Shown: one piece after another, positions 19,623 through 21,370 of the stretch
How the letters are laid out: every line of letters begins with the position of its first letter
Position numbering within the stretch: the stretch's first letter is position 1
Virus record (IMG/VR): IMGVR_UViG_3300042507_002077
Location: 1-37,352 of that record
Strand: one strand, 5' to 3'
DNA from: a virus
DNA: 37,352 nucleotides
Notes under the pieces: model-generated
The model's database searches: none
Told to the model about the DNA's origin: nothing
Seen by the model: the letters and a program-made list of their open reading frames with translations, nothing else
Translations under genes and position numbers: made by a program

Positions 19623-19901
19623 ATGCGCGTTCGACTCGGCAAGCGTTGGTTTACGGTGCGCGAGTCCAAGCGGCTCGGGGACTGTGGGCAATGCGAGATC
19701 ACCCGGCATCGCAACGGCACGGTCACACGGGAAGTCCGCGTTGCGACATGGCAGACGGAGCAGGATGCGCTTGATACTTGGGTGCATGAAGCCATGCACG
19801 GGATATGGCCGGACAAATCTGAATCCGAGGTCGCGGCGGCTTCGGCGGAACTATCCGCCCTGCTTTGGAGGTTGGGCTACCGCCGGGGCGCGGACGGTTG
19901 A
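19623..19901 (+). CDS. Small HExxH metallopeptidase-like protein
   Basis: A 92-aa protein with H55-E-A-M-H59 in W-V-H-E-A-M-H-G-I-W-P-D-K-S-E-S-E, followed by A-E-L-S-A-L-L-W-R-L-G-Y. HExxH plus a downstream acidic residue (E67 or E69) is the zincin pattern, and the size and ending match small phage metallopeptidases. Substrate unknown. It is the last gene before a 500-base non-coding region, so it closes the late operon. Confidence 0.7.
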   Translation: MRVRLGKRWFTVRESKRLGDCGQCEITRHRNGTVTREVRVATWQTEQDALDTWVHEAMHGIWPDKSESEVAAASAELSALLWRLGYRRGADG

Positions 19902-19940
19902 TCCTGATTGCGGATCGTTAGCCCGTCCGTATGCGTTTTG
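19891..19940 (+). terminator. Possible terminator of the late operon
   Basis: CGGACGG (19891-19897) pairs with CCGTCCG (19923-19929), with an inner GATCC/GGATC stem (19900-19904/19912-19916). A TTTT lies 6 nt later (19936-19939). The structure overlaps the last stop codon. The internal loops make it weaker than the other terminators here. Confidence 0.35.
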
Positions 19941-20258
19941 GCACACGGAAGCCACTCCGTATGCGAAAATCGACGCGCATCGTCGTTTTGCGGATACGGG
20001 ATGGGCGTGTGATGGATTGTCGGGCGTTGGGTGCAAAAGGTGACACTTCCTCACAAGTATGGTGGATTTGATCCACGCCGGGGTATGCTTGCGTTGCGAG
20101 GATGTGGGTCTAGCGCGTTTGATCGCCGTGCGAATCCCACTCGGAACGGCGCAGAAGGCCGCGAGGTACGACCGCCGTTGATATCACCGATGGGGTAATG
20201 CAACCTGTCGCCGGGGCGGGACGGAAGCAGAAAGTGACCGTTGCCGCCCACTTGACCC
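19902..20258. other. Non-coding region between late and early blocks
   Basis: No gene with acceptable start and codon pattern is visible on either strand. It holds a direct repeat TCCGTATGCG (19926-19935 and 19956-19965), a degenerate inverted copy near 19990, and a short palindrome GTGGAT-ttg-ATCCAC (20062-20076) that could be an operator. It may contain an attachment or regulatory site, but there is no integrase to support that. Confidence 0.5.
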
Positions 20259-20286
20259 TTGCGCGTTCCTGATTCGGTGGTAGCAT
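20259..20286 (+). promoter_or_regulatory. Promoter of the replication gene
   Basis: TTGCGC (20259-20264), a 16-nt spacer, and TAGCAT (20281-20286), upstream of a 120-nt leader. Same -35 type and spacing as other promoters here but without the CCCCG/CGGGG palindrome. An overlapping TTGACC at 20252 is too far from the -10. Confidence 0.5.
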
Positions 20287-20292
20287 GGGAGG

Positions 20293-20413
20293 TGCGGGAT
20301 CGTCCCGCATGGGTGAGGCTTGCGGCCAACCCGACATTTCAGAACACCGGGAGTGGGGTGGGGCTATTTGCCGCAAGCCTCGCCCCGCCCCCTCCCGGCT
20401 TTTGGAGCGTGCC
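20293..20413 (+). promoter_or_regulatory. Structured leader, candidate attenuator
   Basis: After a hairpin TGCGGGA-tcg-TCCCGCA (20293-20309) come two stems that cannot coexist. Stem A pairs GAGGCTTGCGGC (20315-20326) with GCCGCAAGCCTC (20370-20381), 12 perfect pairs. Stem B pairs 20347-20364 with 20382-20398, 17 pairs with one bulged T and one G-U. Stem B is followed by CTTTT, so it resembles a terminator with A as antiterminator. The right arm of A ends exactly where that of B begins, leaving no room for both. The signal it would sense is unknown. Confidence 0.55.
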
Positions 20414-21370
20414 ATGAACGCACCGTGGTTTCCCCTGTACGCACCGGAATTTCTCGCTAGCACTATGTCGATGTCCCCGGAGGTGGTGGGTGCCTACATC
20501 CGCCTGCTTTGCTACGCATGGATGAACGGCGGCATTCCCGATGATCTGCCGACCGTGCAACGAATCTCGGGAGGCCTATCCGAATCCGGGTGGGCCGAAA
20601 TCCGCGCCCGTTTGCAGCCTCACGGTGACCGTAGCGGTGACCGTCACGGTGACCGTGTGCAGATGTTGGTGCATCCGCGCATGGAGCGCGAACGGGTACG
20701 AACCGAGTCGATCAGGGAGGCGCGGCGAGTGGCCGCTAATAACACGAATAGGAAGCGGAGGCACGGTGACCGTGACGGTGACCGTAGCGGTGACCGTAGC
20801 GGTGACCGTGACGGTGACCGTAGCGGTCACCGTCTGTATCCACAGTCACAGAATACAAATACCCCCCACCTGTCGGTGGGGGGTTCTAGGGGGGAGGGGG
20901 TGGGAAATCCATCGGAAGGGAACCGACCCAAGCCCGCCGCTTCGACGGCAGGGCGGCTAGAAGGCGCGGAGGCGCGTCCGAGCCGTCAGGACGGGCCGAC
21001 ACCTACCCCCACCCCTCCGAACGCTCCTGAAGGCATCGTGCCGCGTTCCGCGATTTCGCGGATGCGCTCCCCGACCGCCGACGAGATGGCGCGCATAACT
21101 CGTCGGCCCGGTAACGCACGAGTCACCGACGAGACAATCGCGGCGAAGAAGTCCGTGATTGAGAAGATCCTGACCGCGAAGGGGGTGTCACCCGAACTCC
21201 GTGTCGCGGTTTGGGAGGCGGGCATTCGGGAGTGGTCGCACACCGGAACCGATCCCTATGAGTGGTGCAAGGGAACGGTGCTTGCCGATTGGGTGGGAGT
21301 GAGAAATCCGAACGCAATTATTTCGCATCGGCTCGGAATTGCTCTTGACCCCGTTGGAGCGGGGCGCTAG
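20414..21370 (+). CDS. DUF1376 replication protein carrying iteron-like repeats
   Basis: A 318-aa protein. The N-terminus (residues 1-95) has the DUF1376 pattern P-W-F-P-L-Y-A-P-E-F-L-A-S-T, then G-A-Y-I-R-L-L-C-Y-A-W and I-P-D-D. Two low-complexity blocks of [HSD]-G-D-R repeats (near residues 70-82 and 117-140) are encoded by 12-bp DNA repeats. A disordered Pro/Gly region and a conserved C-terminal helical domain (about 240-318) follow. DUF1376 proteins are often found with phage replication genes and are thought to help start replication. Repeats inside an initiator gene recall lambda O. No helicase, primase or polymerase gene is recognisable nearby, so host enzymes would be recruited. Start chosen at ATG 20414 (GGAG upstream). 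Confidence 0.7.
   Translation: MNAPWFPLYAPEFLASTMSMSPEVVGAYIRLLCYAWMNGGIPDDLPTVQRISGGLSESGWAEIRARLQPHGDRSGDRHGDRVQMLVHPRMERERVRTESIREARRVAANNTNRKRRHGDRDGDRSGDRSGDRDGDRSGHRLYPQSQNTNTPHLSVGGSRGEGVGNPSEGNRPKPAASTAGRLEGAEARPSRQDGPTPTPTPPNAPEGIVPRSAISRMRSPTADEMARITRRPGNARVTDETIAAKKSVIEKILTAKGVSPELRVAVWEAGIREWSHTGTDPYEWCKGTVLADWVGVRNPNAIISHRLGIALDPVGAGR
20623..20656 (+). repeat. Iteron-like repeat block 1 (3 copies)
   Basis: CGGTGACCGT at 20623, 20635 and 20647, exactly 12 bp apart. The core is nearly palindromic. It encodes G-D-R repeats in the DUF1376 protein. Confidence 0.75.
20764..20833 (+). repeat. Iteron-like repeat block 2 (6 copies)
   Basis: CGGTGACCGT at 20764, 20776, 20788, 20800 and 20812. 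At 20824 there is CGGTCACCGT, the reverse complement of ACGGTGACCG, so the last copy is inverted. Period 12 bp. With block 1 this is a candidate replication origin. Confidence 0.75.
20861..20884 (+). repeat. GC-rich hairpin beside the iterons
   Basis: ACCCCCCACC (20861-20870) and GGTGGGGGGT (20875-20884) form a perfect 10-bp stem with TGTC loop, 28 bp after the last iteron. A G-rich stretch follows to about 20904. It may be part of an origin or simply a stable mRNA structure. Confidence 0.55.

Follow-up and report, generated by a model that had tools for sequence, protein, structure and literature searches.

Does the stretch in front of this phage's replication genes carry a regulatory RNA, and which step of gene expression might such an RNA control? 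The window, an IMG/VR phage record of 37,352 bases, has its identified genes on the + strand, and the window features described below lie on that strand too. Tail-type genes are followed by a gap at about 19,900-20,413, then by a DUF1376/primosomal-type replication gene (20414-21370, 318 aa), and then by genes for an ERF-type annealing protein, Gp157, terminase, portal and head proteins. The DUF1376 assignment has a Pfam E value of 1.1e-6, slightly under the gathering score, and the PHROG assignment of the product is a primosomal protein. A Shine-Dalgarno sequence, GGAG, lies at 20404-20407. Within the gene itself, iteron-like 12-nt repeats (GGTGACCGTNRC) at 20622-20834 encode GDR-type repeats, and two relatives (L011 and L060) carry other repeats at the same place; differing repeats at one site suggest an origin of replication inside the DUF1376 gene.

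Interleaved stems at the start of the operon

Two long stems occupy the leader. The core of stem A consists of 12 perfect pairs (GAGGCTTGCGGC, 20315-20326, with GCCGCAAGCCTC, 20370-20381), and outward extension by GGGT (20311-20314) and GCCC (20382-20385) brings the total to 16 pairs, one of them G-U; its arms span 20311-20326 and 20370-20385, and the 3' arm sits in the loop of stem B. Stem B joins a G-rich 5' arm (20347-20364, with a single bulged T at 20354) to a C-rich 3' arm (20382-20398) through 7 pairs (20347-20353/20392-20398) and 10 pairs (20355-20364/20382-20391), 17 in all. An earlier, sequence-only reading had described stems of 12 and 17 pairs, and both were confirmed. Stems A and B as described are unlikely to have arisen by chance alone: the leader minimum free energy (MFE) had a z score of -3.66, with none of 200 shuffles equally stable, and an interleaved helix pair of equal quality appeared in 4 of 1000 dinucleotide shuffles. 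A single-stranded linker, GACATTTCAGAACA (20333-20346), approximates RACAWYYC in relatives (alignments A2 and A3). An optional 5'-terminal hairpin, TGCGGGA-TCG-TCCCGCA (20293-20309), has counterparts at the equivalent position in L011, L017 and L341, with other sequences. A coding explanation of the leader was rejected; a frame is open from 20285, but the corresponding frames of L011 and L017 contain stops while the helices are kept.

The same reading had proposed that a shared region allows only one stem to form. The arms follow the order A5'-B5'-A3'-B3', which is an interleaved (pseudoknot) order and not one arm common to two stems. In the window only 20382-20385, the outermost four nucleotides of the extended A3' arm and the innermost part of B3', can pair in either stem, and in nearly all relatives the A3' and B3' arms abut with zero overlap. 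Since 0 nt separate A3' from B3' and 3-8 nt separate B5' from A3', full A (12 bp) and full B should not fit together, and their coexistence in one molecule looks sterically impossible.

A promoter was predicted at 20259-20286 by consensus match only (TTGCGC, 16 nt, then TGG and TAGCAT as an extended -10), which places the transcription start at about 20293. A -10-like box was present in 28/28 distinct members of the family described below, either 7-10 nt or 22-32 nt upstream of the element, and the longer spacer often contains a small hairpin. With a -10 box just upstream in every distinct member, the element is probably the 5' end of the transcript. No obvious leader peptide had been noted previously, and none is conserved; an upstream ATG was absent from most of the 27 leaders checked (ATG starts only).

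The element stands directly 5' of the first gene of the operon, usually DUF1376 and occasionally HNH. Among 80 DUF1376 loci, 65 had the element directly upstream, in a set whose query alignment was seeded with element-bearing members. The 15 loci that lacked it were those in which the gene directly follows another reading frame (L304-L311) and distant relatives (L359-L365). Another kind of first gene stands behind the element in the pairs L048/L050 and L151/L158, and it is of HNH type in L048 (4767-5433) and L151 (5488-6277, under the Pfam cut-off), which indicates that the element goes with the operon start. The earlier proposal that the leader controls a replication initiator is thus too narrow. 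The distance from the end of A3' to the ATG was 28-37 nt in most members (the called start of L112 is probably 12 nt too early), so that stem B ends near the Shine-Dalgarno sequence.

An RNA family with compensatory changes

The first relatives, phage contigs that included L002, L011 and L017, were reached through the DUF1376 protein and the terminase, and their leaders contained the same two interleaved stems in different sequences. A short motif just upstream of the element (AAGGCCGCRAGGTACG) led to 120 loci in viral contigs, most of which were genuine relatives by profile. A family-blind search for abutting interleaved helix pairs found 125 in phage loci and 8 in 1.84 Mb of control bacterial DNA searched on both strands, the 8 having no common sequence; the phage loci had been preselected for relatedness, and the comparison is a specificity control, not a frequency test. 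A covariance model trained on stem B and a further helix, P0 (see below), gave 45 matches in 89 phage-contig sources, namely the window (E 6e-9) and 44 further loci, and one match (E 0.77) in 432 kb of bacterial control DNA. When 16 phage records were searched in full, 14 carried one strong copy, and one record (G004) had a second, weak match.

A search of 4227 Rfam families returned zero matches in the window and in other sources, namely L089, L080, L131, L152 and L061 (gathering cut-offs) and L341 and L152 (E 0.5). At E values up to 5, positions 19900-20500 matched merely microRNA families, weakly and far under their cut-offs. The window leader had no DNA match among named phages, in which the DUF1376 search recovered one distant protein only, from a Rhizobium phage. 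Partial literature searches found no RNA motif tied to DUF1376, and an earlier description is possible. By these comparisons, stems A and B belong, as two of its arms, to a structured RNA family about 110 nt long that is absent from Rfam and common to dozens of uncultivated phages. Two variants were seen among the members. In L294 (1862-1963) most of the stem B 5' arm is gone and stem A is intact, through true loss or an assembly error, and a clade of L061, L333 and L291 has an extra hairpin, GTCCGC-TACATG-GCGGAC, between stem B and the start codon.

Covariation of both stems in relatives, the check put forward with the earlier reading, was carried out, and both stems covary. Alignment A2, a plain MAFFT alignment of 28 distinct members, was 88.4% paired over A and B with 15 doubly changed pairs, against 44-51% paired when slid by 1-3 columns; its members were chosen for the presence of both helices, so the percentage is partly built in, and the weight lies on the double changes and the sliding control. 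Without a hint, RNAalifold selected stem B together with the third helix, P0, which is GGGT (20311-20314) with ACCC (20329-20332) in the window and GAGC/GCTC in relatives. P0 competes for the outer pairs of stem A on its 5' strand. Its cells were 98-99% paired, and its few double changes come from the window (GGGT/ACCC), L332 and L072. On the alignment made with the P0+B model, P0 and B were 93.7% paired with 13 doubly changed pairs. Stem A, which lies outside that model, was 90.4% paired on the same alignment with 50 double-change cells, and scored 0.251 as compared to 0.014-0.065 when slid. The pair-type count of stem A was no higher than in column shuffles and its outer GAGC pairs hardly vary, so its support comes mainly from the inner pairs. 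The shuffles ignore relatedness, and no probability is attached to them. Together, the alignments show that compensatory changes have preserved P0, A and B in divergent phages, with their order unchanged and directly 5' of the first gene.

A second structured RNA, termed block 1, lies upstream at about 20097-20249; together with a separate -10 box, TATGCT (20084-20089), it spans 20084-20249. Of 133 instances of the leader element, 109 had block 1 upstream on the same strand, 16 gave no match, and 8 had too little sequence. Block 1 has 33 consensus pairs, 23 of them with double changes. Its helices include a closing one (GCGG/CCGC), a long one whose tip is GAAGGCC-GCRA-GGTACG, and a hairpin at the 3' end; in L052, L097 and L152 a hairpin resembles a tRNA T-arm. 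It had no Rfam match and also occurs in phage loci without a detected leader element. A scan of bacterial genomes with a block 1 motif gave at least 119 stretches, and among the matches listed none was a convincing block 1 by profile. Base pairing between block 1 and the leader was considered and rejected: matched pairs were no better than swapped pairs in linker or loops (p 0.27-0.81), and overall complementarity (p 0.04) is confounded by relatedness and not supported. P0, the promoter that places the element at the mRNA 5' end, and block 1 had all been missed by the sequence-only reading.

Predicted folding order and possible control of the first gene

Folding was computed from energy parameters, with pseudoknots ignored. 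For full leaders the predicted minimum contained B and zero A pairs in 28/28 members, and P0 in most. In 27 of 28 members the nascent RNA folded as A while it grew past A3', with B taking over when a median of 11 nt had been added. Most members have no nucleotide common to A and B, which leaves no simple route from A to B by strand displacement. Stem A both covaries and is the predicted nascent fold; that it would exclude B is inferred from geometry and the computed folds.

We favor the reading, at a probability of about 0.5, that the replication-operon mRNA begins with this element, a conserved RNA that acts in cis as a switch, set by folding order or gated by a factor, for translating the first gene. 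Nascent RNA would fold first as A; after the emergence of about 11 nt beyond A3', B is the predicted minimum, accompanied by P0 in most members. In that state the B loop would display A3', and a kissing interaction between A3' and the loop of P0, through the inner A pairs, could still form; such a contact of about 7-8 pairs should fit sterically. With P0 and B formed, the long GC-rich B helix would end a few nucleotides 5' of the Shine-Dalgarno sequence and hinder 30S loading, whereas while A holds, the B 3' strand would be open and the start site more accessible. The switch would be timer-like, set by time alone, or gated by a protein, small RNA or metabolite. Control of translation is a reasoned guess, and a better one than termination, since B is unlikely to be an intrinsic terminator and the usual distance from A to the start codon is 28-37 nt.

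Predicted accessibility of the Shine-Dalgarno sequence was equal in the A and B states (Wilcoxon p = 0.41), while the wider -18 to +3 region was more open in the A state (p = 0.017), partly since it touches the B 3' arm. Masking of the Shine-Dalgarno sequence was discarded as a candidate, as pairing was weak in the window MFE and inconsistent across members. Besides the equal Shine-Dalgarno accessibility, the translational switch has against it the lack of a simple strand-displacement route, the occurrence of the element 5' of non-replication first genes, and L294, which keeps A and has lost most of the B 5' arm. A kinetic precedent exists in the phage MS2 maturation-gene leader, where the phage uses delayed leader folding and a transient early fold in the 5' leader delays a stable structure that hinders ribosome binding (cited in PMC6582335). 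The fold order computed here fits such a timer. MS2 differs in being an RNA phage with another stable fold, whereas the present element has three covarying helices, including an interleaved pair, in tailed-phage-type contigs and is known from computation.

Transcription attenuation, with B as an intrinsic terminator and A as the anti-terminator, is in our view very unlikely. The sequence-only reading had seen attenuator or riboswitch logic in the leader and had pointed to CTTTT after B. Alternative, covarying stems in the leader of a replication gene are indeed present, a likeness to attenuators and riboswitches that use terminator and anti-terminator stems, and B is a strong GC hairpin directly followed by CTTTT in the window (20399-20403). 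In relatives, however, CTTTT is not conserved: the 28 members averaged 3.1 T in the 8 nt after B, only two had 5 T there, and no T run exceeded 4. The terminator scan did not flag stem B, and the start codon lies at a fairly constant distance; unlike in such attenuators, there is no conserved U-tract to complete an intrinsic terminator, and B stands directly 5' of the ribosome binding site. In addition, A precedes B in the nascent RNA and B is the predicted winner, so that transcripts would terminate by default. Equally improbable seems a riboswitch with a metabolite ligand that stabilises A or the P0-B contact. Orphan riboswitches combine conserved loop and linker nucleotides with alternative helices, as does this leader, but it matches no Rfam class, offers few conserved unpaired nucleotides for a pocket, and is confined to phage loci in the DNA searched.

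A stable operator, formed by P0 and B with a loop-loop contact or by a pseudoknot, would make the alternative helix secondary; it would bind a protein of the phage or the host, perhaps an operon product in autogenous repression. In T4, gp32 binds a pseudoknot in its own leader and thereby represses its translation; that leader likewise has interleaved helices 5' of the start codon of a phage replication gene (PMC3014915). The T4 leader consists of two coaxial, coexisting stems and an A+U-rich region bound by gp32 (PMC3014915), whereas here the arms are long and GC-rich and the alternatives compete; the interleaved order is present, the full stems together seem sterically implausible and a partial loop-loop contact seems plausible. 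The conserved linker RACAWYYC and the near-invariant GAGC/GCTC look like more than a pairing constraint. Retention of the element before an HNH-type first gene, however, makes the DUF1376 protein no obvious regulator, and the members keep A paired in full, beyond the inner pairs that a P0-B contact would require; we regard an operator as unlikely. Rather less probable still is a role in processive antitermination, with the element at the head of a long operon. The put RNAs of HK022 are structured antitermination RNAs at the 5' end of phage early transcripts, and the present element shares a position at the very transcript start and is independent of first-gene identity, but its architecture differs, and it has one strong copy per record and not one per operon, compact and fairly constant spacing to the start codon, and three covarying helices with long-range pairing. 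It is most improbable that the element works as DNA or primer, its G-rich and C-rich arms promoting an R-loop or single-strand structure for origin firing beside the initiator gene. The iteron-like repeats inside the DUF1376 gene and the G-rich transcript arm would suit such a role, but the likelier reading is an mRNA leader, given the compensatory changes in long-range helices, a -10 box at a set position on one strand and the presence of the element before HNH-type genes.

A more far-reaching form of the switch is tentative, and we think it unlikely: the element would belong to a new class of phage leader RNAs that set the timing of early-operon expression by folding order alone, first A and then a P0-B loop-loop complex, and in most phages it would be paired with a second structured small RNA upstream which may tune it in trans.

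These results turn a single-sequence observation into an RNA family that is backed by compensatory changes and missing from Rfam. The computed rearrangement from nascent to final fold gives an architecture open to standard probing and reporter assays. To our knowledge, few structured RNAs regulate phage replication genes, the T4 gene 32 leader being the standard case. In many uncultivated phages the family stands, beside a second such RNA, where expression of the replication operon would be controlled.
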